Positions 3,223 to 22,757 of a DNA stretch of 32,068 nucleotides are shown here, piece after piece. Each line of letters starts with the position of its first letter. The stretch's first letter is position 1. The stretch is from a bacterium. Its GTDB lineage: Bacteria > CSSED10-310 > JAJRTK01. Under the pieces are notes generated by a model. That model worked only from the letters and a program-made list of their open reading frames with translations. It did no database searches and had not been told where the DNA came from. A program made the translations under genes and the position numbers. The stretch lies in assembly GCA_024278345.1 (NCBI GenBank), contig JAJRTK010000321.1, forward strand, positions 1-32,068. The letters are read 5' to 3'.

Positions 3223-4373
3223 CTTCCGGTCCAATAACAGTATGCGGCCTGGACCACGGCCAAATTCAGGAGCACAAAAAAAGCCGGAAGCTGGAAGATC
3301 AGCCGGGGTGGACCGATACCAGCAATCCACTCATCGAATAGGAGATCCAACGCCGCAAGCCCATATCCCGCAAATTGCACGAAAAGCAACGTCCGGTAAA
3401 ACGAAGAATCCGAAAGAACCACGTTGGCCACGAAAGAGGCCAGCAAGAAGAGTGGCGCCAGCAATCGCAATAACTTGTGCGAGAAAAGCTGGAACGCCAC
3501 GGGGCTCCGGAGGGGATTGAGAAGGGGACCCAGATACCGGAATGCCTGAAAGTTCCCCGTCAGGGTGCGAACTTTCCGCCGGATCTCCGTGCGGGCATGT
3601 TTCGCAACCGTATCGAATGCCTTCGCGCGGCTGTCGAACACGATCCGATAGCCCTGCAATACAACCTGGAGCGGTAGTAAAACGTCATCGAGGATGATTT
3701 CGTCCGAGATAGGGACAAAGAGCCGCCTCCGCAGAGCGTAAATCGCTCCCGTGACTCCCAGCACCGAGTGAAGGCGGCTTTCGCCACGGCGGATCGCCTT
3801 TTCGTAGGTCCAGTAAAGACGGGTCCCCGTTCCTGTGGCCGACTCGTCGTGGGAAAGGAGATGCAACTCCCCGGTGACCGCCCCTACCACCGGATCAGAA
3901 AAATTCTCCACAAGACGAAGAATGGCGGTTCTGTCGAAGCTCTGGCGAACGTCGCAAAAGACGACGATCTCCTCTGCCACCGTGGGCAAAATCCGGTTGA
4001 GAATCGAGGTCTTCCCACGGCGCTTTTGGAAGACCCGGCATTCCACGTTTAGACTTCTATACCGTGCGGTGATCGCTTCGGATTGATCCGCGCATCCATC
4101 CAGAGCCACAAGGATCCGAAGCCGCTCCAACGGGTAATCTGACGCCAGGAGGTTCTCCAGCTTGCCCGCCAAGAGCGCCTCTTCATTGTGAACGACCATC
4201 AGAACCAAAACATTTGGAAGAGAATCCCAAGGAACCTCCCGGCATGCCGTCTTTCGCTTCCTCCAGCGACCGTGGAGAACAACGCTCAGGGGATAGCCAA
4301 CGTAGGTGTAAAAGAGCAAACTGGCCGATATCCAAAACTGCCAAACCCACCATTGACCAAAGTTTCCGTCCAT
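3111..4373 (-). CDS. Family 2 glycosyltransferase, polytopic
   Basis: A 420-residue membrane glycosyltransferase. There is one N-terminal hydrophobic segment (about 10-34), then a GT2 catalytic domain beginning VLVLMVVHNEE (about 55-65). An Asp in the CDVRQSFD segment (D141) stands where the DxD metal site is expected. An ILDDV motif near residue 233 probably holds the catalytic base. An RRKVRTLTGN segment takes the place of the usual QxxRW. Three or four hydrophobic helices follow from about 300. It is transcribed toward the ligase-like gene and overlaps its last 112 bp, so the two transcripts share antisense 3' ends. The Ser/Ala-rich tail (last 30 residues) is encoded in the overlap and looks unstructured. 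Family assignment is firm, substrate unknown. Confidence 0.85.
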   Translation of the reverse strand: MDGNFGQWWVWQFWISASLLFYTYVGYPLSVVLHGRWRKRKTACREVPWDSLPNVLVLMVVHNEEALLAGKLENLLASDYPLERLRILVALDGCADQSEAITARYRSLNVECRVFQKRRGKTSILNRILPTVAEEIVVFCDVRQSFDRTAILRLVENFSDPVVGAVTGELHLLSHDESATGTGTRLYWTYEKAIRRGESRLHSVLGVTGAIYALRRRLFVPISDEIILDDVLLPLQVVLQGYRIVFDSRAKAFDTVAKHARTEIRRKVRTLTGNFQAFRYLGPLLNPLRSPVAFQLFSHKLLRLLAPLFLLASFVANVVLSDSSFYRTLLFVQFAGYGLAALDLLFDEWIAGIGPPRLIFQLPAFFVLLNLAVVQAAYCYWTGSYTAWWPATSADGDPAVRREAVSSSRASNPPTAASNK

Positions 4374-4449
4374 TCTTCAGGTCCTTCCACCGATAGAAGG
4401 ACAGTATCAGAAATTGCCTCAGCGCGGATCACGACCCTTTTTTTTCCAG

Positions 4450-4498
4450 GTGTTACGTTCCGCTCCCATCGGCGGCAATCCGTCCGCCGCTGCTCGCC
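4450..4498 (+). repeat. 49-bp intergenic repeat, copy A
   Basis: Shares CCGCTCCCATCGG and the TCCG...CCGCT..TCGCC end with copies at 7544, 23012 and 24786, and all four are 49 bp. A GGCGG/CCGCC stem can form in the middle. It lies in the divergent region upstream of the epimerase gene. Confidence 0.75.
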
Positions 4499-4560
4499 AG
4501 TTTCGCCCCTTTCACCACCAGTTGCCCGGAAAGCGGCGCCCCAACCGAATGAGTTAACGA

Positions 4561-4595
4561 TAGGTTTGTCGTTTGGTAAGAAATCTGTAAACCTA
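4561..4595. promoter_or_regulatory. Inverted repeat TAGGTTT-N21-AAACCTA, possible operator
   Basis: TAGGTTT at 4561-4567 is mirrored by AAACCTA at 4589-4595, about 85 bp before the epimerase start. It could be an operator or part of a leader stem. No regulator is suggested by context and a chance repeat cannot be excluded. Confidence 0.3.
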
Positions 4596-4677
4596 ACAAA
4601 GATGCCTAAATCTCTTCGATAGCCTTTCTTGGATTTCGAGCTCCAGGGAGGTCCCTCAACCTTGAGGACGGGGAATC

Positions 4678-5643
4678 ATGCGAGTTTTTGTCACTGGTGC
4701 CACTGGGTTCGTCGGCCGCGCCGTTACCGCCCACCTTCTGGCGGAGGGCCACGAACCGACAGCCCTCCTCCTTCCTCGGGAACCTGATCCAGAGATCGAA
4801 GGGCTTCGGGTGGTCCGCGGCGATATCACTGTGTCGGCATCACTGGTGGGGTTGATGAACGATCACGAGGCCGTCATCCACATGGCCGGAGCCGTAGGCT
4901 ACGGACAGTCTTGGGATGCCTGCAACAGTCTCAATCGCGATGGAACCTGCAACGTGGCCAAGGAGGCATCGCGCGTGGAGGCCAGGCGATTCGTCCACCT
5001 GAGCTCCGTATCGGTCTACGGCCGCGAAACAAAACTCTCCCTTTCCGAAGAGGTTCCAGTCAAGAAAATCGGTGATCCTTATGGCGATACGAAGATCGAT
5101 GCCGAGGAAATCGTCCAAAAACTTGCCGACGCCGGGCGACTGGATCTGACGATCCTGAGGCCCACCGTTATCTATGGACCTGACGATAAGAAGTTCCTGC
5201 CTCTCTTAGTGGAAAACCTCCGCTCTGGCCGCGCCAAAATCATTGGTACTGGCAAAAACAGTGTCGATCTCATTCACGTGGCCGATGTCGCTGCCTTTGT
5301 GGTCAAGCTTCTTGGCGAGCCCGCCACCGTTGGCCGGATCTACAACCTGAACAACCCCAACAACTGCTCCTGGGAAGAGCTTTTGGAATCCATCGCCTCG
5401 GACCTCGGCGTGGCGGCACCCAGAGGTAGGCTTCCCTACAACCTCGCCCTGGTGATGGCCGGGCTGCTGGAGCTTATTTCTAGTTTCACCGGTCGTCCTC
5501 CACGCTTGACGCGTTACGCGGTCCGGGTCATCGGCCGCCAGTACCGATACGCGGTGGACAAAGCCTTGAAGGCGGGATTCCAGCCCTCGGTAGAGCTCCG
5601 GGAGGGCATCCGCCGCTGTTTAAAACAGGGTGGTTTCCTGTAA
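4678..5643 (+). CDS. NAD-dependent epimerase/dehydratase (extended SDR)
   Basis: This 321-residue cytosolic enzyme belongs to the extended short-chain dehydrogenase family acting on nucleotide sugars or related substrates. The Rossmann glycine motif TGATGFVG is at residues 6-13. A Ser-rich strand with the SSVSVYG segment (109-115) and the catalytic YxxxK (Y135, K139) are in place. The substrate-binding half includes ILRPTVIYGP (about 159-168). The ATG at 4678 follows GAGGACGGGGAATC, a usable ribosome-binding site. Its neighbours on the left are polysaccharide genes, which favours a nucleotide-sugar role. The C-terminal half also resembles sterol/flavonol-type reductases of the same superfamily, so the substrate remains open. 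The gene converges on the FG-GAP gene with only 10 bp between stops. Confidence 0.88.
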   Translation: MRVFVTGATGFVGRAVTAHLLAEGHEPTALLLPREPDPEIEGLRVVRGDITVSASLVGLMNDHEAVIHMAGAVGYGQSWDACNSLNRDGTCNVAKEASRVEARRFVHLSSVSVYGRETKLSLSEEVPVKKIGDPYGDTKIDAEEIVQKLADAGRLDLTILRPTVIYGPDDKKFLPLLVENLRSGRAKIIGTGKNSVDLIHVADVAAFVVKLLGEPATVGRIYNLNNPNNCSWEELLESIASDLGVAAPRGRLPYNLALVMAGLLELISSFTGRPPRLTRYAVRVIGRQYRYAVDKALKAGFQPSVELREGIRRCLKQGGFL

Positions 5644-5653
5644 GGAGAAGATT

Positions 5654-7525
5654 CTACGGGGAAACCCTTTTCCGCGAGACTCGGGCGCGAGAACCTAAGG
5701 AGCCTGCTCCGCGGACGAGATCGAGCCTGCTATCGATGGCGGGAACCGGGAAAACCTCGCGTTGGCCGTCCGGCCAAAGCACTTCCAGGCGCTCGATCTT
5801 TTCCTGGGCCCCGAGGCCAAAAAGCAGATCCATACTGTCCTGGGAGAGGTAAGATGAGCCCGCCTGAACCGAGCGCACCTGGATCTTTTCCCCAGCTACG
5901 AGCTTCACCTTTGCTCCGATGGCATACCGATTACCACCCGTGGGCTGGGCAAGGCGGAGCTTCAGCCAATGATGCCCCAACTTCTGGTCGTTCCGGAGAA
6001 GCGCAACGCCACCCCCGTAGAGAAGGAGCGCCACATCGGGATCGCCATCTGTGTCGAAGTCAGATACCGCCAGGCCCCGGGCCGTCTTGGGGCTTCTGAA
6101 GAAGGCACCGGTTTCGCGGCCGGTCTCGTGAAACTCCTCGCCCTGGCGATTCCAGAAAAAGAGTTGCCGCATGGGTTTGAGCTTCGGCGGCGCGGACTCA
6201 TCCTGAAACGTGCTGCCGGTGGCGACAAAAAGATCGAGCCTTCCGTCGAGGTCGGCATCCAGAAAGGTCGTGCCCCAGCCGATGAAATCGAGGGCGATCT
6301 GGCCCAGGCCCCGCCGATCAGCTTCATCGATAAAACGAGGCGGCGCCCCAGGAGCAGCTAGACGAGTTTCAACGAGTTCCGGTCCGGCTGGCTTTTTTGG
6401 CCTCAGCTTTCGGTAAAGGGCGTTTTCCTGGGCGATCCAGTGGGTCACGAAGATTTCCTGGGTCCCATCGTTGTCCACATCGCCAAGGGCGATCCCCATG
6501 GCGCCACGGTAATCGGCGATCCAGGATTCGTGGCTGGTATCCAGAAAGACCCCTTCCCCCTGGTTGAGGTAAAATGCGTTGTCAGAAACATCATTGGCCA
6601 CGTAAAGATCGGGCAAGCCGTCACCGTTGAAATCACTCCAAACGGCCTGGAGGCTACGGCCATCCTCATTGGCAACGCCGGCAGCGGCGGTCACATCGGT
6701 GAACCGCCCATTACCCTCGTTCCGATAGAGCACGTTGGGCGCAGGCAGATAGGAAGAGGGATTCAAGGTGAAGGGAACCACCGCCTTGTACTGGCTGGTG
6801 TGCCGGGTGCGATCCTCCTCCCGGAAATCGTATTGAACGTAGCGGCAAAGATAGAGATCGAGGTCGCCATCCAAATCGTAATCGCTCCAGGCCACGCCGC
6901 TGAAAAAGCCCTTCTGGTCAAGACCTGCTTCTTTCGCCGACTCGGTAAAATGGCCTTCGTCGTTTCGGTAGAGCGCAACGGCATCGTAGCCTGTCACCAG
7001 CAGATCGAGATCCCCGTCGCCATCGTAGTCAGCGAACGACGCGGCCATTCCAAGCCCGCGAAACCCAACGCCAGTCTCCTTGGTCACGTCGATGAAACGG
7101 CCTTCGTCATTCCGGTAAAGCTTCGTGGAAACCGAAGACTCCCTCCATCTCTTCCGTTGGTCCAGGGGACCAGAAATCGCCACTAAAACCAGGTCATCAT
7201 CGCCATCCCCGTCATAGTCGCCCCAAGCAACTCCAGAACCCATATCCTCCGGCAACTGCACCGAACGAGGAAAGGGAAAATGGCGGAACTCGATGCCACT
7301 CTGAAGGCCGATTTCGGTCCATGCCAAAGGCGGCGCACCGGCTGGTTGACGGAGCGACAGCTCACTGGTGATTCCCTCCGACCTCTCGCCGGGAATATAG
7401 GCCTTTTCCGGCGAGTTCCACGGCTGAACAATCGCCAGGAACAGGGCAGCGGCCGCAAAAGCCGAAGCAAGTCCTGTAGCGGTGGCCAGACGCCGGGTCC
7501 GACGGGTCCATCTTTTCTTTGCCAT
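5654..7525 (-). CDS. CRTAC1-like FG-GAP/VCBS repeat protein with ASPIC/UnbV C-terminus
   Basis: About 623 residues. A basic N-terminus is followed by one hydrophobic helix (roughly 17-34), so the rest is probably periplasmic or surface-exposed and tethered. At least seven calcium-binding FG-GAP-type loops of the form DxDxDGxxD are visible (for example DYDGDGDDD, DYDGDGDLD, DFNGDGLPD, DADLDGRLD, DFDTDGDPD), predicting a beta-propeller. The C-terminal segment with VQAGSSYLSQD and LEVLWPDGQ is the ASPIC/UnbV domain. I placed the start at ATG 7525 (MAKKRWTRR). A longer frame would run through the 49-bp repeat and is unlikely. It is the third gene of the mobB-cytochrome operon, after a 73-bp gap. 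Proteins of this family often sit beside multihaem cytochromes or TPR proteins. The molecular role is unknown. Confidence 0.85.
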   Translation of the reverse strand: MAKKRWTRRTRRLATATGLASAFAAAALFLAIVQPWNSPEKAYIPGERSEGITSELSLRQPAGAPPLAWTEIGLQSGIEFRHFPFPRSVQLPEDMGSGVAWGDYDGDGDDDLVLVAISGPLDQRKRWRESSVSTKLYRNDEGRFIDVTKETGVGFRGLGMAASFADYDGDGDLDLLVTGYDAVALYRNDEGHFTESAKEAGLDQKGFFSGVAWSDYDLDGDLDLYLCRYVQYDFREEDRTRHTSQYKAVVPFTLNPSSYLPAPNVLYRNEGNGRFTDVTAAAGVANEDGRSLQAVWSDFNGDGLPDLYVANDVSDNAFYLNQGEGVFLDTSHESWIADYRGAMGIALGDVDNDGTQEIFVTHWIAQENALYRKLRPKKPAGPELVETRLAAPGAPPRFIDEADRRGLGQIALDFIGWGTTFLDADLDGRLDLFVATGSTFQDESAPPKLKPMRQLFFWNRQGEEFHETGRETGAFFRSPKTARGLAVSDFDTDGDPDVALLLYGGGVALLRNDQKLGHHWLKLRLAQPTGGNRYAIGAKVKLVAGEKIQVRSVQAGSSYLSQDSMDLLFGLGAQEKIERLEVLWPDGQREVFPVPAIDSRLDLVRGAGSLGSRARVSRKRVSP

Positions 7526-7543
7526 GAAGAAGAGCTCTCGCTT

Positions 7544-7592
7544 GGGTTGTTTTCCGCTCCCATCGGCGTCCATCCGGCCGCCGCTATCCGCC
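7544..7592 (+). repeat. 49-bp intergenic repeat, copy D
   Basis: Matches copy B at 23012 along its whole length (GGGTTGT..TCCGCTCCCATCGG, then TCCGGC, then CGCTA and CGCC). It fills most of the 73-bp gap between the cytochrome stop (7599) and the FG-GAP start (7525), so it would be transcribed inside the operon message. Confidence 0.8.
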
Positions 7593-7598
7593 TTGGAG

Positions 7599-9686
7599 CT
7601 AGCTTCCCTCAATCTCGATCTTGGCAGTCGCTTCCGCAATGACCGTCACGGGAGCCGTCTTCGGCGGGTCTTCGCCCAATGTGAAGTTCACCAGGAACTG
7701 GTTGAGCTTGCGGTACATCAGCTTGGCTGACACGGTGAGGGTCCGGCTCTTGTCAGCAGGCGCGGCAAACTCGAATTTTTCCTCCCGATCCCCTGATGCC
7801 GCATCATCCGTTTTTTTGCCCGCTTCCACCAGAGCACCCGGGCAGGCGAAAGCAAACTCTACGGTGTCGGCGAAGCCGGGGAAGAGGGCGCGGCGGAAAC
7901 GGACCCCCACCATGTCCCAAAGGTTGTGCTTGTCAATGAGGTTCCCGTATTGATCCACCGGCTCCGCCTTGAACATGAAGCTGCCCTCGGGAACGAAATT
8001 CTTTTCGTTGAGCTTGCCCGTGCTGTAAACCAGGCGGCCAGAATCGTCGCGAACTTCGAGCTGGACCCAAACTTGGATGAGATCTAGTGGGCCAGTGGGG
8101 AAGTCATGGCCAACTTTGTTGGAGGTAATGACGACGCGGAGGGGCACATTTTCTCCGGGCTTGGCTGTCTTGGGTGCGGTAAGCTCGATGGGCACGGCAG
8201 GGCCATCGACCCACTTGCCTTGAATTTCCGGAATCCGGAGTTCGCCGCGAAGCCATTTCTCCGTCTCCTTGACATGCTCTTCTCCCCCCGGCAGGTCGAG
8301 GGCCTTGGGAATCCACTGATTGGCGCCCAGAAAAGCGTGGCTCCGGTGTTTCCCATCGTAGGGATCGCGATTTTTGTCTACGGGATCACCGGCGCCTGGG
8401 TCCGTGGAAGCCCGGAGGGGCATGTGGCATTCCCTGCACTCGATGGTCTTGTCCGGCTCATCGGGATGGTTCCAACGGCTTTTGCGCCAATTATCGTACT
8501 GATTTTGGAGCTGGACCCAGCCGACGTTGTTGACCTCTTGATCGACGAACTGTTTGTGGCAAGCGGCGCAAAACTCCGGCGTCTTGAACATCCGGCGGCT
8601 GTAGGTGGCATTGTGCTCATCGGGATAGGCGCGGATAAGAAAGTCCGAGGCAAACTTTCCAAGTTTGCCGCCGGAGCTTTCGTAAAGATAGCGCTGGGGC
8701 TCGGTGATCACGTAAGCGGCGTTACCCTTGATGTCGGTCTCGCGGATAGAATGGCAGGCCGCGCAGGAAATACCTTCCTGGAATCCGGAAAGGCCGGTGA
8801 GGTTCTCGACAAAAATGTTTTTCGTCCCGGAAAAAAGGGAGATGGGATCGTGGCAACCACCACAGTAACGGGTCGATTCGGGGCCGTTCTGCTTTCCCAT
8901 CGTGGCCTGAACCGCCTGAAAAACCGGGTCCATCGCCGCATAGCGGTGAGCCGATGGAAGCCACTCCTCGTAGATCTCCTGGTGACACCCCGAAGAGCCG
9001 CAGGCCGCGGAACCAGCCAGGCTTTCCGGGGCCAAAGGGCCATTGGTGTCGGTCCGGGCCAGGCTGGGAGCGAAGGGCCGATCATCGCCATAGGGTTTGC
9101 TGTAGTCGGCGGGAAACTCCCGTTTCGCCATGGGCTTCGTGCCGGCGGCACTCCAGGCGCCCCAAGCCACGGAAAAGGCAACGGCCACGAGAAGTGAGCC
9201 CCGGACGTAGAGGCGTACGGGCTCGCCGCGGCCCCAGCCAATGCCCGCGCTCATGGCGCGGAACAGGAGAAGGATCAAGTGAGGCATGGCAAAAGCGAGA
9301 AGAACGAAAGTCCCGGCGATATGAACGTCTCGCCACACCCAGGAGATCCGCGTGCTGGCCGCGGCCTGCAGGCTCAACACAAGGCCGGAGACAACCAGTG
9401 ACAAAAAGGCCAAGGCCGTCACATATCCCGTGAGCTTGTAGTGAGTCAGCGGGTGTCCACGATAGGCGCTGAAATGCTTCCAAATGTACACGAGGGACGG
9501 AATGATGAAAGGCAGCCCGACGATGGTGTGACAAAGGACCGCAACCTGCGTCGTGACGGAGAAGGGAGCAAGATAGATCACCAGGCCGGTGAGGGTTTCG
9601 AAGAACAGCAGTCCGGAGACCCACCGCACCAGGGCACTGGTCCAATCTTGTGTCTGTTTCACGGAATGGGCATCACTTTGGCTCAT
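7599..9686 (-). CDS. Membrane cytochrome b-like / pentahaem cytochrome c fusion
   Basis: A 695-residue redox protein. The first 180 residues contain about five membrane helices (near 21-41, 46-70, 86-106, 118-143, 160-181). Their His residues (H53, H122 and H136) could ligate b-haem, like the cytochrome b561/NapC-type quinol modules. A periplasmic part follows with five c-haem sites: CGSSGCH (229-235, a CX4CH variant), CGGCH (275-279), CAACH (308-312), CAACH (373-377) and CRECH (417-421). This part is similar in style to cytochrome c554-type proteins. A haem-free beta-rich domain (about 470-690) ends the protein. The inferred role is moving electrons from quinol to a periplasmic acceptor, or the reverse. 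Its ATG overlaps the mobB stop (ATGA), so translation is coupled. The electron partner is not visible in the window. Confidence 0.85.
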   Translation of the reverse strand: MSQSDAHSVKQTQDWTSALVRWVSGLLFFETLTGLVIYLAPFSVTTQVAVLCHTIVGLPFIIPSLVYIWKHFSAYRGHPLTHYKLTGYVTALAFLSLVVSGLVLSLQAAASTRISWVWRDVHIAGTFVLLAFAMPHLILLLFRAMSAGIGWGRGEPVRLYVRGSLLVAVAFSVAWGAWSAAGTKPMAKREFPADYSKPYGDDRPFAPSLARTDTNGPLAPESLAGSAACGSSGCHQEIYEEWLPSAHRYAAMDPVFQAVQATMGKQNGPESTRYCGGCHDPISLFSGTKNIFVENLTGLSGFQEGISCAACHSIRETDIKGNAAYVITEPQRYLYESSGGKLGKFASDFLIRAYPDEHNATYSRRMFKTPEFCAACHKQFVDQEVNNVGWVQLQNQYDNWRKSRWNHPDEPDKTIECRECHMPLRASTDPGAGDPVDKNRDPYDGKHRSHAFLGANQWIPKALDLPGGEEHVKETEKWLRGELRIPEIQGKWVDGPAVPIELTAPKTAKPGENVPLRVVITSNKVGHDFPTGPLDLIQVWVQLEVRDDSGRLVYSTGKLNEKNFVPEGSFMFKAEPVDQYGNLIDKHNLWDMVGVRFRRALFPGFADTVEFAFACPGALVEAGKKTDDAASGDREEKFEFAAPADKSRTLTVSAKLMYRKLNQFLVNFTLGEDPPKTAPVTVIAEATAKIEIEGS

Positions 9687-10417
9687 GGTCGAGGTCCGAG
9701 TGTAGGGGTTGACGACGAGGTGGAATGGAAGGCCGGTATCGAGTTGTGGCCGCGGTTTTCAGCCGGCTCTGACTTGCCGGCACTGCCCCGCGGGAACCTC
9801 TCTTCTACCCACGCAGCCAAGGCTTCGGGTTTTCCAAGCTCGAATACCGGAACGGGGAATGGCCGCTCCAGATCGGTGAAGAGGGCGATGAGGGTCGGAT
9901 CATGGAGACAGAGAGGCTCGGGGCTGCGCTTCGACCGGACCACCTCGATCTTGGGCCACGGACCTGTTTTATAACCCTCGGTAATGACCAAGTCCAGGCC
10001 CTGAAAGAAGTGAGATAGAAGAGCCTCCCGCTGAAGAGGTTCCGTCAGCCGCCTCCGAAAAGCCAATTCCGTATCAGAGGCGATGAGCACGCGGTTAGCG
10101 CCGGCCTGGAAATGCCGGTCGGTATCCTTGCCCTCGTAATCCATGCGAAAACCATGGGCATCGTGCTTGAAAGTGCCAACGCGCCAACCACGGAGGGTCA
10201 AGTGGCGCACAAGGTGTTCCAAGAGCGCGGTCTTGCCGGAATCCTTGCGGCCTACGATGGAAAGTACGGCGGGATGTGACGTCGGAGGTTTCATGGGAAT
10301 AGTCTGCGTGATTGGACCGTTGACGGGAGAAGAAACGGTTGGCCGCCCTTTTGGGTGACTGCGCTCCGCCCAAGGTAAATTGCCGTCCAACTTGCGATAA
10401 AAGGGTCTTTCTGTCAT
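9683..10417 (-). CDS. mobB: MobB-type molybdopterin-guanine dinucleotide biosynthesis adaptor
   Basis: A P-loop GTPase-like protein that assists MobA in attaching GMP to molybdopterin for Mo/W enzymes. The Walker A motif GRKDSGKT is at residues 56-63. The family signatures FKHDAHGF and DLVITEGYK follow, the latter being the Walker B region. I kept the ATG at 10417 because GAGGA stands 7 nt upstream. An ATG at 10294 would give the normal MobB N-terminus but has no visible ribosome-binding site, so the protein may carry a 41-residue extension. The C-terminal 40 residues are low-complexity and Ser/Thr/Pro-rich. The gene heads the minus-strand operon and overlaps the cytochrome gene by 4 bp. Its partner moaA/mobA genes and a molybdoenzyme are not in the window. 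Confidence 0.88.
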   Translation of the reverse strand: MTERPFYRKLDGNLPWAERSHPKGRPTVSSPVNGPITQTIPMKPPTSHPAVLSIVGRKDSGKTALLEHLVRHLTLRGWRVGTFKHDAHGFRMDYEGKDTDRHFQAGANRVLIASDTELAFRRRLTEPLQREALLSHFFQGLDLVITEGYKTGPWPKIEVVRSKRSPEPLCLHDPTLIALFTDLERPFPVPVFELGKPEALAAWVEERFPRGSAGKSEPAENRGHNSIPAFHSTSSSTPTLGPRP

Positions 10418-10551: not shown

Positions 10552-11310
10552 ATGACGATGACAATCCTTTTCGAAACGCCTACTCATCGCAACCTCCTCC
10601 TTGAGGATTTTGGGCATGGCCAGGCGATCCAGGCGAACCAACATCTGATCATCCACAACGGCCAGGCCATCCTCCTCGACCCAGGGGGGCACAAGGTTTT
10701 CAACCAGGCTCTATCGGAGCTCAGCAGCTTGTTGCCCGGAGGCCAGGGGCTCCAATACCTCTTTTTTTCCCACGCCGATCCCGATATCGTCGCGGCGGTG
10801 AACCGCTGGCTCATCACGACGGATGCCATTGCCTACGCGTCGAAGCTCTGGCAAAGGTTCATCCCCCACTTCGGTCTCGACGACGCGTTTATGCACCGTC
10901 TTTTGCCGATTCCTGACGAGGGGATGTTCCTCGATCTTGGTGGAAGCGAGTTGATGCTGCTTCCAGCTCATTTTCTGCATTCCGTGGGAAACTTCCAAGT
11001 CTATGATCCGGTATCGAAGATCCTCTATAGCGGGGATCTTGGAAGTTCCATCGGCATGGATTACACTGAGGTCCAGGATTTCGACGCCCACCTCGCGTAC
11101 ATGGAGTCGTTCCATCGACGTTACATGGCCTCCAGCCGCGCTTTACGGGCTTGGGCCAGGATGGTTCGTCCGTTGGATCTCGAGATTATCGCCCCACAGC
11201 ACGGCGCCTTCTTCAGAGGCCGCGTGATGATCGACCGGTTTTTGGATTGGTGTGCTGGCTTCCAGTGTGGAATTGAAGTCTTGGAGCAAATCTACGAGAT
11301 TCCCAAATAG
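10552..11310 (+). CDS. Flavodiiron-like metallo-beta-lactamase-fold protein, paralogue 1
   Basis: A 252-residue protein with only the beta-lactamase-fold half of flavodiiron proteins, as in the stand-alone ODP (oxygen-binding di-iron protein) group. Likely metal ligands are H74-x-D76-x-D78, H143, D162 (SGDLG) and H217 (APQHGAF). Their spacing follows the flavodiiron pattern HxExDH/H/D/H, except that Glu is replaced by Asp and the final His of the first motif by Ile. There is no flavodoxin domain, so an enzymatic NO/O2 reductase would need another electron donor. A sensor role is an alternative. I chose ATG 10552, with AGGA about 8 nt upstream; 10558 is possible. It is the first gene of a six-gene operon and is strikingly similar to the gene at 11785 throughout. 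Confidence 0.82.
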   Translation: MTMTILFETPTHRNLLLEDFGHGQAIQANQHLIIHNGQAILLDPGGHKVFNQALSELSSLLPGGQGLQYLFFSHADPDIVAAVNRWLITTDAIAYASKLWQRFIPHFGLDDAFMHRLLPIPDEGMFLDLGGSELMLLPAHFLHSVGNFQVYDPVSKILYSGDLGSSIGMDYTEVQDFDAHLAYMESFHRRYMASSRALRAWARMVRPLDLEIIAPQHGAFFRGRVMIDRFLDWCAGFQCGIEVLEQIYEIPK

Positions 11311-11390
11311 GTCACGATGGAACCATATCACGAGCTCTCGGAGCCCGCGAAAAGCAGGTTCGGAACCCCACAGTGTTAAGGAGAAGGACG

Positions 11391-11756
11391 ATGTCCAGGA
11401 TCGATGATCTGAACCGCATCTTGAGGTCCTTGCAGACCGAAAGCCCTGACATTCGAGCGAGTGCGCTCATATCGGAAGACGGTTTGATGATTGCGAGTGC
11501 CCTGCCGCAGCATATTGACGAGATGCGCGTGGCGGGAATGAGCGCGACCCTGCTCAGCCTCGGGACCCGAGCTTCCAGAGAACTCTCACTGGGGGGGCTG
11601 GAGCAGACGCTGATTCGGGGGTCGGACGGCTATGCCGTGATGCTGACATCGGGCAAGGGGAGTATGCTCTTGGCCATCACCACCAAGCAGGCGAAGCTCG
11701 GGTTGATCTTCCTTGACATGAGCCGCGCCGCAAAGGAAATCGAGCGGATCCTCTAG
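11391..11756 (+). CDS. Roadblock/LC7 domain protein
   Basis: A 121-residue, single-domain roadblock/LC7 protein, the family of MglB and other partners or GAPs of small GTPases and ParA-like switches. The family pattern ASALISEDGLMIASALP (about 23-39) is followed by a long helix, then SDGYAVMLTSGKGSMLLAITTK and a C-terminal amphipathic helix. Such proteins form dimers with a shared beta sheet. The ATG at 11391 is preceded by AAGGAG with 7-nt spacing, which makes the upstream GTG at 11373 unlikely. It sits between the two flavodiiron-like paralogues, 28 bp before the second. No MglA-type GTPase is present, so the natural partner would be the ParA-like ATPase two genes downstream. Confidence 0.85.
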   Translation: MSRIDDLNRILRSLQTESPDIRASALISEDGLMIASALPQHIDEMRVAGMSATLLSLGTRASRELSLGGLEQTLIRGSDGYAVMLTSGKGSMLLAITTKQAKLGLIFLDMSRAAKEIERIL

Positions 11757-11784
11757 CACGCATCATCCGTGGGGAAGCATCACC

Positions 11785-12543
11785 ATGCCGACGACTCTTT
11801 ATGAAACGCCAACCCATCGCAATCTTCTCCTTGAGGACTTTGGAAGAGGGCAAGCTGTTCAGGCCAACCAACACGTCATCATCCACAACGATCAGGCCAT
11901 CATCCTCGACCCTGGTGGTCACAAGGTTTTCAACCAGGCGCTCTCAGAGATCACTCTTCTTTTGGGCACCGAGGGGAACTTACGTTACCTCTTCTTCTCC
12001 CATCAGGACCCCGACATTGTCGCCGCGGCAAACGGTTGGCTGATGACAACGGATGCCATCGCTTACGCCTCGGCACTCTGGATGAGGTTCATCCCACACT
12101 TCGGTGTCGATTCGATGGTGGTGGATCGACTCAAACCGATTGCCGACGAGGGAATGCTGTTGGATCTCGGGGGACTGCAACTGATGATCCTGCCTGCCCA
12201 CTTCCTGCATTCCGTTGGGAACTTCCAGATCTACGACCCAGAGTCGAAGATTCTTTACGCGGGAGATCTCGGTGCCTCCTTAGGAATGGAATACATCGAG
12301 GTCACGGATTTCCAGGAGCATTTGAAGTACATGGCGGGATTTCACCGGCGGTACATGGTATCGAATCGCGCCATGAGGGCATGGGCAAACATGGTTCGTC
12401 AGCTCGACATCGAGATCATCGCCCCGCAACACGGTGCTTTCTTCCGGGGCAAGGCCATGGTCGATCAGTTCGTGGACTGGTGTGCCGAGCTCGAATGTGG
12501 GATCGACATTATGGAAGAGTATTTCAGGCTCCCCAGGAAATAG
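11785..12543 (+). CDS. Flavodiiron-like metallo-beta-lactamase-fold protein, paralogue 2
   Basis: A 252-residue paralogue of the gene at 10552, collinear from end to end and sharing long blocks such as ETPTHRNLLLEDFG, LDPGGHKVFNQALSE and LPAHFLHSVGNFQ. The candidate metal ligands are all kept: H73-x-D75-x-D77, H142, D161 and H216, with the same Glu-to-Asp replacement. Differences cluster in surface segments, which fits divergence into a heterodimer or two sensing states. It starts at ATG 11785 after a modest GGGGAAG site, and the ParA-like gene follows after 23 bp. Retention of both copies around a roadblock gene suggests both are functional. Whether it binds iron, and whether it senses or turns over O2 or NO, cannot be told from sequence. 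Confidence 0.82.
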   Translation: MPTTLYETPTHRNLLLEDFGRGQAVQANQHVIIHNDQAIILDPGGHKVFNQALSEITLLLGTEGNLRYLFFSHQDPDIVAAANGWLMTTDAIAYASALWMRFIPHFGVDSMVVDRLKPIADEGMLLDLGGLQLMILPAHFLHSVGNFQIYDPESKILYAGDLGASLGMEYIEVTDFQEHLKYMAGFHRRYMVSNRAMRAWANMVRQLDIEIIAPQHGAFFRGKAMVDQFVDWCAELECGIDIMEEYFRLPRK

Positions 12544-12566
12544 ATTTTGGCATCGGAGGAAAAGCT

Positions 12567-13388
12567 ATGGCCCAACAAATCGTGATTGCCAGCCAGAAGG
12601 GTGGTGTGGGAAAGACGACCGTCTGTCTCAACCTTGCCTTGGCCTTTGCGGAGCGCGGAGTGAACACGCTTCTGGTGGACCTCGATCCACAGGGCGCCAT
12701 CGGTCTTTCTTTGGGGCAGAAGGACACGGCGTGGCCCGGAATCGCTGACCTCATGATGGGCGTCGTGCCCAAGGAAAAAACCATCGTTCGGACGAAGCTC
12801 CCCCTTTTGAGTATCCTTGCCCGAGGACGCCTCGATCCCCGGGATATCTGCGAATACGAAACGGCCCTCTATTCCACCAATCTCTTGAGCGACACCCTGA
12901 AGAAAGTGGAGGGTGGCTTCGACCTTCTCATCCTGGACACGCCCGGCGGCATGGGAATGATCACGAGAGCGATCCTCAGGATCGCCGAATTCGTTTTGGT
13001 TCCCGTACAGGCAGAGGTTCTGGCGGGACGCTCGACACCTCAGATTCGACGGATTATCGAGCATGTCCAAAAGAGCGAAAACCCCGGGCTTCGGTTTCTG
13101 GGCTTCCTGGCGACAATGGTGGAGCATTCCGACAAGCTTTCCCAGTCCATCTTGATGCAACTCTGGTCCAGCGGCGCCAACGTACTACAAACAGTGATCC
13201 CCCGGAACCGCGTTTTTCACGAGGCCTGCCAGAAGGGAATCCCCGTGGGCTACCTTGGAGCCACCGTTCATCCTGAGGCACGCCGCTTCGACATGCTGGC
13301 CATCGAGGTGGAAAACCTCATCCACCAGTACGCGGAAGAATCCGATTCCTCAGAAGAGATGACAAGGACAGAAAGAACCTTGATTTGA
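12567..13388 (+). CDS. ParA/MinD-type deviant Walker ATPase
   Basis: A 273-residue P-loop ATPase of the ParA/Soj/MinD group. The deviant Walker A KGGVGKTT is at residues 11-18, Walker A' LLVDLDPQG near 40-48 and Walker B LLILDTPGG near 128-136. A strong GGAGGA site lies 6 nt before the ATG. ParA-type proteins dimerise with ATP and position cargo on nucleoid or membrane. Here there is no ParB gene or parS-like repeat nearby, which argues against chromosome or plasmid partitioning and for an orphan ParA positioning or switching a protein complex. The roadblock protein upstream and the Pro-rich protein directly downstream (40-bp gap) are the obvious candidate partners. The C-terminal 15 residues are acidic/Ser-rich. 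Confidence 0.9.
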   Translation: MAQQIVIASQKGGVGKTTVCLNLALAFAERGVNTLLVDLDPQGAIGLSLGQKDTAWPGIADLMMGVVPKEKTIVRTKLPLLSILARGRLDPRDICEYETALYSTNLLSDTLKKVEGGFDLLILDTPGGMGMITRAILRIAEFVLVPVQAEVLAGRSTPQIRRIIEHVQKSENPGLRFLGFLATMVEHSDKLSQSILMQLWSSGANVLQTVIPRNRVFHEACQKGIPVGYLGATVHPEARRFDMLAIEVENLIHQYAEESDSSEEMTRTERTLI

Positions 13389-13428
13389 CCTGGTCTTTTG
13401 TCCTGTTCCCGTCATGGAGGACCTTTCC

Positions 13429-14400
13429 GTGGAACCGCTTACCTCCTATATTCGCTTCAGTCTTCAGAAGAACTCCGGACCAGTTCCGGAGGAGACCGCC
13501 GACGAACTGCCCAAAAGGGACCGTGCGCCAGTGAGAGAGCCGGCCTACCTCCGCTTTTCACTCCACGACCTGACCTTCGGTCGATTCGAAGTCGGCCGCC
13601 CAAGAGAGACAGTTCCCAAGGCCCCGGAGCCAGTGGAAATCTCGCCGGGGGGCGCCCCGGAGCCATCGCCGGGAGAGACCGAGCCAATGGCGGCTCCGAT
13701 TGCAACGCCCGCCAAGCCACCAAGGTCACCCCGATCAGCCGTCTCGGCTCAACCAGCTCCAGCGCCTTCGCCACCAACCCCTCTTCCTGCCGTCCGTTTC
13801 AGGACCAAACCTCCAGATTCCGGCAGGTTTCAAGCCGTCCATGGCCAGGCGGCTCCGGGGCTGACGCCCTTCGAAACCCCGGCCCCCCCTGTTCCGGCCA
13901 CCTCCTCCGCCGGGACGCCAAAACTCGAAGAAAAGGCGCCATCGCCGGCACCGACTCCTTATGACACCCACAAACCCACCGCCTCCTCCGCCATCCCCGC
14001 GGCAAAACCGCGGCTTCCCACTCAGGGACGCTTTGGTTCCAAATACTGGGATGAAATGCTGGACTGGTTCCTGCAAGCATCGCGGAGCGACGCCGCTTTC
14101 GCCATGAATCCCGAAGGCTTGACCATCTCCCACCGCGGCAAGTACACGGCGGACGAGGTGACGAACATCGGCTCGCGGTTGCTCATCGCCGTGGAGCATA
14201 TCTCGAAAATGGGTCTTTCGCCGGGACGCCCGGAATGCGTCCTGGTCCATTTCGGACCGCGGATCCTCACCGGGCTCTGCTTCGATTTGGAGCCGCCGGA
14301 ATTCCTCATCCTGGGTTTTATTGGCAGCAAGCCGCTCTCCTCTCAGACGCGGAAGGAAATCCTGCTGATGGTTTCCAGCATCCTCTCTTCACAAATCTGA
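13429..14400 (+). CDS. Pro-rich protein with roadblock-like C-terminal domain
   Basis: About 323 residues that I could not assign to a named family. Residues 1-60 hold two copies of a short motif, YIRFSL (7-12) and YLRFSL (40-45). Residues 60-200 are a Pro/Ala-rich, probably disordered linker. Residues 205-323 look like a divergent roadblock/LC7 fold: AFAMNPEGLTISHRG, a long helix GSRLLIAVEHISKMGL, then strands ECVLVHFGPRILTGLCF and FLILGFIG. GTG 13429 is preferred since GGAGG stands 8 nt before it. ATG 13414 lacks a ribosome-binding site. The position after parA and before a hybrid kinase suggests an adaptor joining the ATPase to the kinase, which is inference. Confidence 0.75.
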   Translation: MEPLTSYIRFSLQKNSGPVPEETADELPKRDRAPVREPAYLRFSLHDLTFGRFEVGRPRETVPKAPEPVEISPGGAPEPSPGETEPMAAPIATPAKPPRSPRSAVSAQPAPAPSPPTPLPAVRFRTKPPDSGRFQAVHGQAAPGLTPFETPAPPVPATSSAGTPKLEEKAPSPAPTPYDTHKPTASSAIPAAKPRLPTQGRFGSKYWDEMLDWFLQASRSDAAFAMNPEGLTISHRGKYTADEVTNIGSRLLIAVEHISKMGLSPGRPECVLVHFGPRILTGLCFDLEPPEFLILGFIGSKPLSSQTRKEILLMVSSILSSQI

Positions 14401-14457
14401 ATTCCGGCCCAATCCTGAAAACATCCAACAAAGCGCTTCGACATACTAGGCATTACG

Positions 14458-15933
14458 ATGAATCCCCATTCCCCTGGAGCTTCGCCCGAGGTTCTCATCG
14501 TCGATGATTCGGCCCCCAGCAGAATTATCATTCGGAGTCTGGTGCAATTAGAAGGCCACCGCTGTATCGAGGCGGCCGACGGTCCCCAAGCACTTGAGAT
14601 CCTGAAGGAGAAACCCATCTCTCTCGTCCTTCTGGACGTGATGATGGGCGGGATGTCGGGTCTTGAGGTTCTGGCAAGAATCCGAAAAGAGCGCACACTG
14701 CTGGAACTGCCGGTGATCATGATCACGGCGGGAGAAGCTCGGCGGACCATCGCCCGAGCCTTTGCCTTGGGTGCCAATGATTTCGTCACCAAGCCCGTCG
14801 ATCTGCCTGTCCTGAGAGCCAGGATACAGGCTCACACGACGATATCACGCCTTTCCCAGCGCCTGGAAGAAGAGAAGCGTTTCTCCCAAAATGTAGTGGA
14901 AAGCATCAGCGACATCGTCTTCGTCGTCGATGGGAACCAGCGGATCACTCTTTTCAACGACTCCGCGGAAAGGACATTCGGCCATCCGGCGGGGGCAATC
15001 CTGGGGCAACCAGCAGCGGACCTGTACGTCGATCCATCCGAGGGGGCCCAGCTCTTCGATATCGCTTTGGAGCAAGGCTTTTTTTTCGGTGAGACCCGCT
15101 GCCGCAAGAAAAATGGGGAAGAATTCTACGTTTTCCAGAAAATGTCAGTTTTGCAGCGCTCTGGTCAGGCAATGGGCCTGGTGATCGTCGCGGAAGAGAC
15201 GACGGAAAAGCGGAAGATCGAGGCCGAGCGGAAGAGGATTGCGGAGGTCAAGGATGAATTCTTCCGGATCGCCAGCCACGACTTGAAAAATCCTCTGACG
15301 GCCCTCGCCCTTGTGGGAGGTGCCCTGAAGATGCCCGGGCTGAGGCGGGAATCACGGGACCACTTCATCCTGGTGCTGGAGAAAAATGTCGCGGTCATGC
15401 AAGAGATCATCGAAGATTTCCTCGATTTTGGCGCCCTTGAAGATGGCGAGCTCCGGCTGGAGCTTGGGCATGTCGATTTACCCGAAATCGCCCGACGCGT
15501 CATCGATGCGAACATGGCCTACGCCAGGGACAAGAAGATCGAAATCAAGCTCCAGCTCGTGGGAAGTGTCCCGCGGGTTGCCGGCGATCCATTCAGACTT
15601 CGACAGGTCCTCTACAACCTGGTGAACAATGCCATCAAGTTTAGCCAATCCGAAACCGGCATCGAGATCTTCCTTCGCCCGGAGGGAGAGGGAGTGCTCT
15701 TGGAGGTGGTCGATTCGGGGCCGGGTCTCTCCGATGAGGACATGGGGAAGGTTTTCCAAAGATACCAACGGCTCAGTGCGAAGCCCACGGGGGGAGAAAA
15801 GAGCTCCAGGCTGGGCCTGGCTATCTCCAAGAAGCTCATCGAGCAGCACGGTGGCCGGATCGGAGTGTGGAACAACGTGGACGAAGGAGCGACCTTTTGG
15901 TTCTGGCTCCCCGCCAGCTCCTCACAATCATAG
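14458..15933 (+). CDS. Hybrid sensor: receiver-PAS-histidine kinase
   Basis: A 491-residue soluble signalling protein. The receiver domain (about 10-128) has acidic D16/D17, phospho-acceptor D60 and K112. A helical linker leads to a PAS domain (about 142-255). HisKA follows, with the phospho-acceptor H274 in SHDLKNPL, and then an HATPase domain with N-box VNNAIKF and G-boxes DSGPGLSD and SRLGLAISK. There is no membrane segment, so it reads a cytoplasmic signal. It is the last gene of the operon and a terminator follows about 165 bp downstream. An N-terminal receiver means its kinase activity may itself be controlled by phosphorylation from another kinase. No cognate output regulator lies in the operon. 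Confidence 0.9.
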   Translation: MNPHSPGASPEVLIVDDSAPSRIIIRSLVQLEGHRCIEAADGPQALEILKEKPISLVLLDVMMGGMSGLEVLARIRKERTLLELPVIMITAGEARRTIARAFALGANDFVTKPVDLPVLRARIQAHTTISRLSQRLEEEKRFSQNVVESISDIVFVVDGNQRITLFNDSAERTFGHPAGAILGQPAADLYVDPSEGAQLFDIALEQGFFFGETRCRKKNGEEFYVFQKMSVLQRSGQAMGLVIVAEETTEKRKIEAERKRIAEVKDEFFRIASHDLKNPLTALALVGGALKMPGLRRESRDHFILVLEKNVAVMQEIIEDFLDFGALEDGELRLELGHVDLPEIARRVIDANMAYARDKKIEIKLQLVGSVPRVAGDPFRLRQVLYNLVNNAIKFSQSETGIEIFLRPEGEGVLLEVVDSGPGLSDEDMGKVFQRYQRLSAKPTGGEKSSRLGLAISKKLIEQHGGRIGVWNNVDEGATFWFWLPASSSQS

Positions 15934-16100
15934 GAGCTCAAGACTCGGCTTTCTTTTGGCAGCTCGTGGTTGGATTGGAAACCCAATGGGGAAACTGTTA
16001 CAAAAGTGAAGAAAATCCATGAGCGAATCTCCCGTCCAAAGGCGACTGGTGCGAGCGGGGGGAACTCGCGCTGGATTCTCTCTTGAGTGGGAAGGGTGAT

Positions 16101-16132
16101 CCCTCCTGGTTTCGTGGGAGGGGCGTTTTTTT
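16101..16132 (+). terminator. Intrinsic terminator of the six-gene operon
   Basis: CCCTCC (16101-16106) pairs with GGAGGG (16117-16122), followed by GCG and a seven-base T run (16126-16132). It lies after the hybrid kinase gene and before the radical SAM gene, marking the operon end. Confidence 0.75.
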
Positions 16133-18119: not shown

Positions 18120-19124
18120 CTACGATCCCTGCTCCTGGTAGTCTTGGAGGATCTTCATGTAGTTGCCCCGCTCGAAAACCGATGGGTTGGGAACGCTCTT
18201 GTGGCTCATGCTCCCGCGCATCTGCTCGACGGATTCGTATTCGTGCTCATCCAGCCAGTCCGCGAGGTCCTTCTTGATCCGGCCAAAATGGGCCAGGCCG
18301 TGGAGTAGGATCGCCGAGGTCATCATGGCAACCTTGGCTCCCACCATGATCGACTTCAAGACGTCCCCATAACTGTGGACGCCGCCAGTGACCGCCATGT
18401 CGCACCAAATGTGCCCGTAGAGAATGGCGATCCAGCGCAGCCGAAGCCGCAGCTCCGCCGGAGAACTCAAATCCAAATCGTGGAGAACCGCCAGGGTCTC
18501 CAGATCGATGGCCGGCTGGTAAAAACGGTTGAAGAGCACCAACCCATCGACATGGGTCTTGTCTAGTCGCTTGGCCATGTTGGGAAGGCTTGTAAAGAAG
18601 GGGCTGAGCTTCACCGAAACCGGAATCGTGAGGTTCCGTTTCACTTCCTGGACCAATTCCAGGTGCCGTTGTTCCACCTGCTCGCTGGTTTCGCTCGACT
18701 CGGTGGGAATAGAGTAGATGTTCAGCTCCAGGGCATCGGCTCCCGCTTGCTCGATCTCTCGGGCATAGTCGGTCCACCCGCCGGGAGTCACCCCGTTGAG
18801 GCTTCCGATGACCGGTATGTTGATGGCTTCCTTGGCCTTGCGGATGACGTTGAGGTACTCTTCCGGCCCGATGGTATGCTCCTGGAGCTCCGGAAGATAG
18901 CTCACGGCCTCCGAATAGTGCTCGCTGGTGGTATGGAGGAACTGGTCAAAAGCAAGGCTCTCGTGGCGGATCTGCTCCTCGAACAGGGAATGCATGACCA
19001 CGACCGAAGCGCCGGCATCCTCGATACGGCGGAAGTTCTCGTCCTTCCTGGTGAGCGGCGAAGCAGAGAGGACCAGGGGCGATTTGAGCTTGAGGCCCAG
19101 ATATGTCGTGGAGAGATCAGTCAT
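18120..19124 (-). CDS. Dihydroorotate dehydrogenase-like flavoprotein
   Basis: A 334-residue TIM-barrel protein related to class 1 dihydroorotate dehydrogenases (NPLVLSASPL-type opening, here KSPLVLSASPLTR; then VIGSLNGVTPGGW, ALELNIYSIPT, IPVSVKLSPFF, VLFNRFY and MAVTGGVHSYGDVLKSIMVGA). The FMN-binding elements look present, while the usual DHOD catalytic surroundings are altered, so pyrimidine synthesis is doubtful. The ATG at 19124 has GAAGGAGG 9 nt upstream and overlaps the end of the PFOR gene by 8 bp, a tight coupling. Proteins of this kind adjoin pyruvate:ferredoxin oxidoreductase in many anaerobes. The partnership suggests an auxiliary redox role with ferredoxin or NAD(P)H, not experimentally defined as far as I know. 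Confidence 0.88.
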   Translation of the reverse strand: MTDLSTTYLGLKLKSPLVLSASPLTRKDENFRRIEDAGASVVVMHSLFEEQIRHESLAFDQFLHTTSEHYSEAVSYLPELQEHTIGPEEYLNVIRKAKEAINIPVIGSLNGVTPGGWTDYAREIEQAGADALELNIYSIPTESSETSEQVEQRHLELVQEVKRNLTIPVSVKLSPFFTSLPNMAKRLDKTHVDGLVLFNRFYQPAIDLETLAVLHDLDLSSPAELRLRLRWIAILYGHIWCDMAVTGGVHSYGDVLKSIMVGAKVAMMTSAILLHGLAHFGRIKKDLADWLDEHEYESVEQMRGSMSHKSVPNPSVFERGNYMKILQDYQEQGS

Positions 19125-22100
19125 TGAGCTTGCCTCCTTCCCGGGCTGGATGACAACTGAGAGCCGCCAGTTGCTGGTATCGCTCCCAACGGTTGGTGGC
19201 ATCGTTTTGCGCAAGGTCCAGCAAGCGGCGGGCAGCTTCCTGGTTGCTTCGAGCCAGCATCCGGTAGCGGGTTTCGTTGTAGGCGTATTCCTCGAACCGG
19301 ATCTTGGGCTTCTTCGAATCCAATTGTAAGGGATTGACCCCTTTCTCCGCCAGCCTGGGGTCGTACCGGAAGAGAGGCCAGTGGCCGGATTTAACGGCCC
19401 CGTCCTGCTGTTTCAGGCCGAAGCGCATATCGTAGCCATGAGCGATGCAGTGGGAATAGGCGATGATGATGGACGGCCCGTCGTACGATTCCGCCTCCAG
19501 AAAAGCCTTGACGGTTTGCTTGTCACTGCTGCCCATGGCGACCTGCGCAACATAGACGTTTCCGTAGGTCATGGCTAGCAGGCCCAGGTCCTTTTTGCCA
19601 AGGGGCTTGCCGCCAGCGGCAAACTTGGCCACTGCTGCTCTGGGAGTCGCCTTGGACATTTGGCCGCCGGTGTTGGAGTAGACTTCGGTGTCAAGAACCA
19701 GGACGTTGACGTTCCGCCCTGAGGCCAAAACGTGATCGAGGCCGCCATAACCGATGTCATAGGCCCAGCCATCGCCTCCTACAATCCATACCGACTTCCG
19801 CACGAGCGCCCCTATTAAGCTCGAAAGATCCCGAGCGCGGGGCGACTCGATCTCCTGGAGCATGGGCTGAAGCTTGGCGACCCTTTCACGTTGGAGCTCA
19901 ATCCCCTCTTCCGTCGATTGATCGGCTTCCAGGATGGCCTGGCACTGCTCCGGGTCCAGGTTTTCGGCAAGCTCCGCCAACAGCTCCCGGGCGTACTCAC
20001 CCTGCTTGTCCAGGGTGAGCCGCATTCCCATGCCGAACTCGGCATTATCCTCGAAAAGCGAATTCGACCAGGCCGGGCCACGGCCATCCCGGTTCGTCGT
20101 CCAGGGGGTCGTGGGCAAGTTGCCACCATAGATGGAGGAACAACCCGTGGCGTTGGCGATGACGGATCGGTCGCCGAAGAGCTGGCTAAGAAGCTTGACG
20201 TAGGGAGTCTCGCCACACCCGGCGCAGGCTCCAGAGAACTCAAAGAGAGGCTCCAAAAGCTGCAAATCCTTGACCTGAGCCGAACGGAGCTTTTTTCTGT
20301 CGATGTCGGGCAACTGGAGGAAAAACTCCCAGTTCTCCTTCTCATTGGAACGGATGGGCTCCAACGGCTTCATGTTGATGGCTTTGAACTTGGTCTCTCG
20401 CTTATTCTTGACAGGGCAAACTTCGACGCAAAGAACACAGCCGGTACAATCCTCCGGGGAGACTTGCAGACAGTATTCCATGCTGTCGAGACCTTTCCAG
20501 CGGGCCTTGGCATGAAGAAACCCGTCAGGAGCATTCCGTAGTGCCTTCGGCTCCACGAGCTTTGCTCGGATGACGGCATGGGGACAAACCATGACGCACT
20601 TTCCACACTGGATGCAGATTTCTTCGTCCCAGACAGGAATCTCGAGAGCGATATTCCGCTTCTCCCACCGCGTTGTTCCCAGCGGATAGGTGCCATCCTC
20701 CGGAAGTGCCCTCACCGGAAGCTCGTCGCCTCTTCCGGCGAGCATGACCGCCGTGACATTCCTGACGAATTCCGGTGCCTTTGCGGAGACAGCCGGCTTG
20801 CGGCGGAGCTTGCTGGTCGCTTCTCCTGGGATCTCCACCTGGAAAAGCCTCGACGCCGCGGCATCCACTGCCTTGAAGTTCTTTTCCACAACGGCGCGGC
20901 CGCGGCTTCCGTAACTCTTCTCAATGGCTTCCTTGATCGCCTGGATCGCCTCGGTCGGCGGAAGGATCCCGCTGATTTTGAAAAATGCCGTCTGCATGAT
21001 GGTATTGATCCGCCTGCCCATCCCGGTATCGGCGGCAACCTCATAGGCGTCAATCACGTAAAACTTGAGCTGTTTGTCGAGGATCGTCCGCTGGATCTCT
21101 CTCGGCAGGTAGTCCCAGACTTCCGCCGGCCCGTAGGGACTATTCAGCAGGAAAGTCGCGCCGGGAACGGCAAGCTTGAGCAGGTCCATCTTTTCGATGA
21201 ACGAGAACTGGTGGCAGGCAACGAAGTTCGCCCGCTGGATCAGATAAGTAGAGTGGATCGGCTTCTTGCCGAAACGAAGGTGGGAAACCGTCGTGGAACC
21301 GGCCTTCTTGGAATCGTAAACAAAGTAGCCCTGGGCGAAAAAATCGGTGCCTTCGCCAATGATCTTGATGGAGTTCTTGTTGGCGCTCACCGTGCCATCG
21401 GAACCAAGACCGTAGAAGACAGCGCGAACCGTATCGTCGCTCTCTGTACAGAAATCACCGTCGATCTCAAGGCTCGTATTGCAAAGATCATCCGTGATGC
21501 CCACGGTGAAATGGTTCTTTGGGGCGGCTTTGCCAAGCTCGCCCAAAACAGCCTTCACCATGGCGGGAGTGAACTCTTTGGAGGAAAGCCCATAACGCCC
21601 GCCCAAGACCCGAGGGAAGCGTTCCAGTGGAAAAGCGCCGTTCCCCAGAGCATGGGCTTCGGCCAAGCCTGTCAAAACATCCTTGTACAGCGGCTCGCCA
21701 GCGCTCCCGGGCTCTTTCGTCCGATCCAGCACCGCGATGGCCCGCGTCGTGGAAGGCAACGCCCGAAGGAGATGCTCTACCGAGAAGGGCCGATAAAGGC
21801 GAACCTTTACGGCTCCAACTTTCTCTCCCCGTTCCGCCAAAGCGGCCACGGCCTCTTCCGCGGTCTCAGCACCAGAGCCCATGAGCAGGACGATCCGCTC
21901 CGCGTCTGGCGCGCCCACGTAATCAAAGAGGCGGTATTGGCGTCCCACCTGCTCCGCGAAACGGTTCATGCAGCTCTCCACGATCCCCGGACAGGCAAGG
22001 TAGTAGGGGTTCACCGTCTCCCGAGCCTGGAAGAAGACATCCGGGTTTTGCGCGGTTCCCCGAATGAACGGATGGTCCGGGCTGAGAGCCCGCCCGCGGT

Positions 22101-22707: not shown

Positions 22708-22757
22708 CGGACACCTGTCGTGGTCAATGGAAATCAAATCGATAACGCCGGTAATGA

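Follow-up and report, generated by a model that had tools for sequence, protein, structure and literature searches.

A six-gene operon that appears to connect oxygen-binding di-iron proteins, via roadblock proteins, with a ParA ATPase and a histidine kinase

Oxygen-binding di-iron proteins (ODPs) are an oxygen-sensor family reportedly described by Muok et al. in 2019 from Treponema denticola and Thermotoga maritima. In orphan ParA positioning systems, such as McdAB and ParC/ParP of chemotaxis, a ParB-less ParA is found next to a partner whose N-terminal part is disordered. Published work presents ODPs as sensors of oxygen and iron co-opted by various signalling pathways (PMC7319448) and as O2 sensors taken up by signalling genes (PMC7319448, PMC7666581); in T. 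denticola the ODP is linked to CheA and a chemoreceptor (PMC7666581). Conservons (CvnA-D), the G protein systems of actinobacteria, join a kinase and a roadblock protein to a Ras-like GTPase, some of them with an accessory sensor (PMC13343842), and orphan roadblock proteins are numerous, in such a way that 328 of 749 MglB homologues have no linked MglA, none of them experimentally characterised in 2014 (PMC4316618). Here we describe a six-gene operon at positions 10552-15933 of the window, that is, the whole 32,068-nucleotide stretch of contig JAJRTK010000321.1 (C249 in our numbering), from a bacterial draft genome of 6.06 Mb in 550 contigs and about 88% complete. Together the six genes seem to make up a conserved signalling unit that would link ODP sensors via a roadblock pair to a ParA ATPase and a histidine kinase. 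In contrast to T. denticola, the neighbours of the ODPs are roadblocks, ParA and a HisKA-type kinase.

Gene content and protein identities

The six open reading frames (ORFs) lie on the forward strand with intergenic gaps of exactly 80, 28, 23, 40 and 57 bp, the 40-bp value assuming that the fifth gene starts at the GTG at 13429 (GGAGG is found 7 nt upstream; the alternative start is the ATG at 13414). An earlier sequence-only reading of the window had proposed this operon, and its gene order, domains and gap sizes were all confirmed from the ORFs and Pfam.

The first and third genes, ODP1 (10552-11310) and ODP2 (11785-12543), encode beta-lactamase-fold paralogues of 252 aa with 72% identity, which are mutual sisters in the ODP tree (support 100/97). 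Both matched the Pfam family ODP (PF19583), with E-values of 2.7e-67 and 4.4e-68 and about 227-229 bits against a cut-off of 27.2, and ODP2 matched the solved chains 6qrq (E 4.7e-64) and 6qnm (E 1e-56) of the Protein Data Bank (PDB), both entries being titled oxygen-binding di-iron protein. In ODP2 numbering, H73, D75, D77, H139, D161, H216 and Q215 were invariant in 91 of 91 aligned ODPs, and the markers of the family are present, with I78 replacing the third His of motif 2 and Gln (Q215) at motif 5, an unusual feature reported for the Thermotoga ODP (PMC7785958). The sequence-only reading had called the pair flavodiiron-like ODPs; the ODP half of that name stands on Pfam, the Gln and the ligands, and the flavodiiron half was dropped because there is no C-terminal flavodoxin domain, the only Pfam matches being ODP and Lactamase_B. 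As judged from their sequences, both are stand-alone ODPs and not flavodiiron proteins. A zinc hydrolase identity is disfavoured, as the ODP markers speak against it.

We also consider it improbable that the two are protective enzymes, consuming O2 or NO or depending on zinc, with regulatory genes that just control them or accompany them. The fold is common to flavodiiron reductases and metallo-hydrolases, and NCBIfam showed a weak resemblance to flavorubredoxin and to hydrolases related to SoxH, but the operon has neither a flavodoxin domain nor a reductase gene among its six genes, the solved homologues are O2 sensors, the Gln marker is present in all the aligned ODPs and the linkage to signalling genes is tight. 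Paired ODPs were also found in L041, L042, L082, L091 and L187, and this recurring duplication suggests that ODP heterodimers could be formed. A distant ODP match in another genome (L008, G017:C1:36112-36837) carries one in-frame TAG.

The second gene, Robl1 (11391-11756), encodes a roadblock/LC7 protein of 121 aa (Pfam Robl_LC7, E 1.1e-14). Its nearest solved chain is PDB 7f8m, a Thorarchaeota roadblock (E 1.9e-24), to which it is nearer in sequence than to solved MglB. The fifth gene, Robl2 (13429-14400), had been read as a Pro-rich protein with a roadblock-like end, and structure prediction bore this out. The window protein has no Pfam match, its relatives matching Robl_LC7 weakly, but its C-terminus is predicted to be a divergent roadblock domain: residues ~205-328 of the 328-aa ATG form follow the order H-E-E-H-E-E-E-H in the AlphaFold model, with pLDDT mostly above 80 and many blocks at 90-96, and the top Foldseek matches of the model were MglB proteins (E 4.7e-5, TM by target about 0.7). 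A roadblock fold was predicted for Robl2 proteins of two subfamilies. The assignment rests on these models instead of on profile comparison by hhalign, in which Robl2 against Robl1 gave mostly low probabilities and the Pro-rich group wrongly took in two L081 ORFs. The N-terminal two thirds of Robl2 are Pro-rich and probably disordered, and in the window protein they contain a duplicated Y[IL]RFSL motif (YIRF at residue 12 and YLRF at residue 45 of the ATG form).

The fourth gene (12567-13388) encodes a Soj-like ParA ATPase with the deviant Walker A KGGVGKTT (Pfam AAA_31/ParA, E 8.1e-31; Thermus Soj 1wcv, E 4.6e-27). The proposal that it is an orphan was upheld: no parB is present in the operon or adjoining the gene, and the sole ParB_N match of the genome adjoins another ParA, on contig C109. 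The ParAs of 15 ODP-type operons, that of the window included, formed one clade (support 96/81), separate from the cluster containing the ParB-linked ParA of the window genome and its counterparts in other genomes. The only member of this clade from outside such operons is a paralogue on contig C549 of the window genome, where it lies among TPR/DUF4388-like proteins and a weakly Robl2-like Pro-rich protein, without an ODP (L171, G000:C549:12000-30000, 6428-10049).

The last gene (14458-15933) encodes a histidine kinase with an N-terminal receiver and the domain order REC-PAS-HisKA-HATPase, all four domains above the Pfam cut-off, with the H-box ASHDLKNPL and the receiver motif LVLLDVM intact.

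Recurrence of the gene set in other phyla

A single profile scan of genome contigs with a six-ODP alignment yielded 78 ODP loci, a sample biased to window-like ODPs because ODP2 is the first row of the alignment. The loci are not independent of each other, and gene calling in the GC-rich ones is approximate, which leaves their start codons and some of their neighbours in doubt. Robl1 was found on the same strand and within 1.5 kb of the ODP in 43 of the 78 loci; Robl2-type proteins (34 loci), REC-DUF4388-like regulators (32), histidine kinases (30), ParA (14), an OmpA protein (14) and a Ras-like GTPase (6) occurred within 6 kb. Robl2 accompanied ParA in 13 of the 14 loci, the contig ending just past ParA in the remaining one (L080). 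The window genome has five roadblock genes in 6 Mb, so that a same-strand roadblock neighbour within 1.5 kb would be expected by chance about once per thousand by simple arithmetic. The recurrence of the gene set in other phyla is above chance, and the proposed co-occurrence of ODP, roadblock, ParA and two-component genes was found across phyla.

Three layouts were distinguished. Layout P, Robl1-ODP-(HK)-REC/DUF4388-ParA-Robl2 (HK, histidine kinase), was found in Thermodesulfobacteriota, Myxococcota and a Nitrospirota metagenome-assembled genome (MAG), and also in a Bacillota MAG with the REC protein placed differently. Layout O, Robl1-ODP-OmpA-Robl2, in which Robl2 has a predicted N-terminal membrane helix, was found in Proteobacteria and Myxococcota. 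In layout G, ODP-TPR-protein-GTPase-Robl2-Robl1, a Ras-like GTPase takes the position of the NTPase; it accounts for five of the six loci with such a GTPase (L105, L106, L109, L114 and L116), in Neisseriaceae-type genomes and Hydrogenophilus. None of the partner genes of these layouts was found near the ODPs of Aquificota and Pseudomonas. The layouts cluster on the ODP tree, which needs 20 changes between them, compared with 48 when the labels are shuffled.

The order of the window, which had been expected to be kept in other genomes, was found again from Robl1 onward in the Bacillota MAG (L085, Robl1-ODP-ParA-Robl2-REC), although this locus ends in a REC-DUF4388 protein instead of a kinase. 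Other arrangements were ODP-Robl1-ODP-REC-ParA-Robl2 (L082) and, in Myxococcota, HK-Robl1-ODP-REC-ParA-Robl2-ODP-HK (L187, G222:C171:37500-49500, 2228-9442). The conserved core is therefore different from the exact six genes: it has two roadblocks, ParA can be absent or replaced by a Ras-like GTPase, and the ParA-Robl2-like pair also occurs without an ODP.

That the six genes are chance neighbours, co-transcribed with no joint function, is very hard to believe. The distribution is patchy, and a close ODP relative is missing from all seven genomes of the same phylum that were examined; yet Thermodesulfobacteriota, Myxococcota, a Nitrospirota MAG and a Bacillota MAG have the same families side by side, and the ParA phylogeny is coherent.

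A putative mechanism and its alternatives

We give a probability of about 0.5 to the reading that the operon encodes a cytoplasmic gas- or iron-responsive module in which an ODP sensor acts through the roadblock pair on a P-loop NTPase (ParA), with two-component proteins alongside. ODP1 and ODP2, likely as homo- or heterodimers, would change state on binding Fe(II) and O2 (possibly NO); they would act via the neighbouring Robl1, which probably pairs with Robl2, and the roadblock pair would control the P-loop NTPase switch, here the ParA ATPase. The ATP cycle of ParA and its nucleoid-bound pattern would then determine whether the Robl2-tethered complex is assembled, or at which place, and the REC-PAS kinase would relay the state by phosphotransfer or would itself be cargo. 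Here we infer the signal, O2/NO (or iron), as well as the protein contacts and the order and direction of signalling. The NTPase is taken as the roadblock client chiefly because in layout G, where the set of ODP, Robl1 and Robl2 recurs, the place of ParA is taken by a nearby Ras-like GTPase. The O2/NO switch put forward by the sequence-only reading is thus partly supported, by the composition, the identity of the ODPs, the conserved linkage and the orphan ParA, and had to be amended in that the core is not the exact six genes.

Partners of ParA commonly contact it via N-terminal peptides, and because of this a helix motif at the N-terminus of Robl2 is a candidate ParA contact site. A motif such as SSEIxEAxxLxxxL precedes the linker in 12 of the 14 Robl2 proteins compared from ODP-ParA operons (window, L056, L070, L074, L076, L081, L082, L083, L084, L085, L090, L095, L102 and L187); the pattern was written post hoc, after viewing the sequences, and matches 0.13% of shuffled N-termini.

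Several observations weigh against this mechanism. The window Robl2, as well as that of L074, is one of those without the helix motif, and the literature searched offers no earlier case of a ParA ATPase as the target of a roadblock protein. Close ODP relatives were absent from the same-phylum genomes mentioned above, and most ODP-roadblock loci have no ParA, so that ODP-Robl1 does not need it. A reciprocal search of 195 Myxococcota genomes gave 10 close orthologues of ParA (E <1e-40), mostly without an ODP, which is present in only two of the ten (the L056 locus and L187). As in several of those without an ODP a Robl2-resembling Pro-rich protein comes next, ParA plus a Robl2-like partner may be a wider core, with ODP-Robl1 as one input; in one such Pro-rich protein (L192), Pfam confirmed no roadblock domain.

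These data bear on an alternative with two parallel outputs, in which ODP-Robl1 would steer the kinase directly and ParA-Robl2 would be a separate positioning system that merely localises the complex and is not switched by the ODPs. Many loci read HK-Robl1-ODP-REC without ParA, ParA and a Robl2-like protein are found together, with no ODP, in the window genome (L171) and in Myxococcota, and accessory proteins of conservons modulate conservon kinases (PMC13343842). However, in the OmpA and GTPase layouts Robl2 occurs with ODP-Robl1 and no ParA, which ties both roadblocks to the ODP side, and we regard parallel outputs as rather unlikely, though deserving consideration.

There is little to recommend a further alternative, that the roadblocks serve an unlinked Ras-like GTPase and ParA is incidental. 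No MglA gene is present in the operon, and an MglA-like GTPase gene with an adjoining roadblock gene was found on contig C312 of the window genome (L172, G000:C312:1-9000, 421-1521); the characterised roadblock clients in the literature read are small GTPases. But this pair has its own roadblock, and the operon ParAs form a clade and are followed by Robl2.

Beyond the module with its sensor, roadblock pair and NTPase, we tentatively propose that roadblocks may regulate a ParA (SIMIBI-class) ATPase and not only Ras-like GTPases, with a di-iron gas sensor driving the switch, in such a way that intracellular positioning would depend on O2/NO and sensors and NTPases would be swapped between lineages. 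If true, gas sensing would be tied to spatial organisation and roadblock regulation would reach a second NTPase class. A family pairing roadblocks with ParA and an oxygen-sensor protein gives orphan roadblocks a testable client and input, and cultured relatives possibly usable for testing are Desulfuromusa kysingii (L090) and Methylocystis sp. B8 (L065, OmpA layout).

Surroundings and comparison with described systems

A possible intrinsic terminator (16100-16123, forward strand), with a stem of 9 bp and a T7 run behind it, lies 167 bp beyond the last stop of the operon. The terminator that had been claimed after the last gene thus has a matching hairpin, with the reservation that the scan as a whole was at chance level (9 found, 8.3 expected). 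Upstream of the operon, the opposite strand carries one MobB-like and one cytochrome-c-type gene, and a radical-SAM gene lies 3' of the possible terminator. A pyruvate:ferredoxin oxidoreductase gene at 19120-22776 of the reverse strand suggests anaerobic metabolism. A multihaem cytochrome gene and then an alginate-export-type porin gene are found at 27820-30485, with a sigma-54 response regulator and a PAS histidine kinase upstream. The genome has two CheW-bearing regions, both on other contigs and none on that of the window.

In the open-access literature searched, we found no description of an ODP with a roadblock or a ParA, and a search for DUF4388 likewise turned up no account of the module, in line with the claim that no described system has this exact composition. 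The ODP sensors of T. denticola and T. maritima (PDB 6qnm, 6qrq) share the protein family, the metal ligands and the Gln marker. Conservons are similar in having a kinase, a roadblock and a P-loop NTPase in one operon, but the window has ParA in place of the Ras-like GTPase (CvnD), a presumed sensor of the ODP family and a second, divergent roadblock, REC-DUF4388 regulators being found in relatives; no CvnC/DUF742 match was detected among the six proteins. The Myxococcus MglA-MglB polarity module, with MglC or RomY, likewise has a roadblock and a partner regulating a P-loop NTPase (PMC7949163, PMC9481161), whereas the NTPase in the window is a ParA, with members of an O2-sensor family included in the operon. 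The operon may work like conservons and Mgl modules, yet it lacks the GTPase that defines them. Group 3 MglA systems (an uncharacterised protein, MglA and one or two MglB; Wuichet and Sogaard-Andersen 2014, PMC4316618) resemble layout G (L105, L114 and relatives) in composition; the main text of that account mentions no beta-lactamase-fold neighbours, and the window has ParA. Finally, the orphan ParA systems share with the window a ParB-less ParA and a partner with a disordered N-terminus, the partner in the window ending in a roadblock domain.

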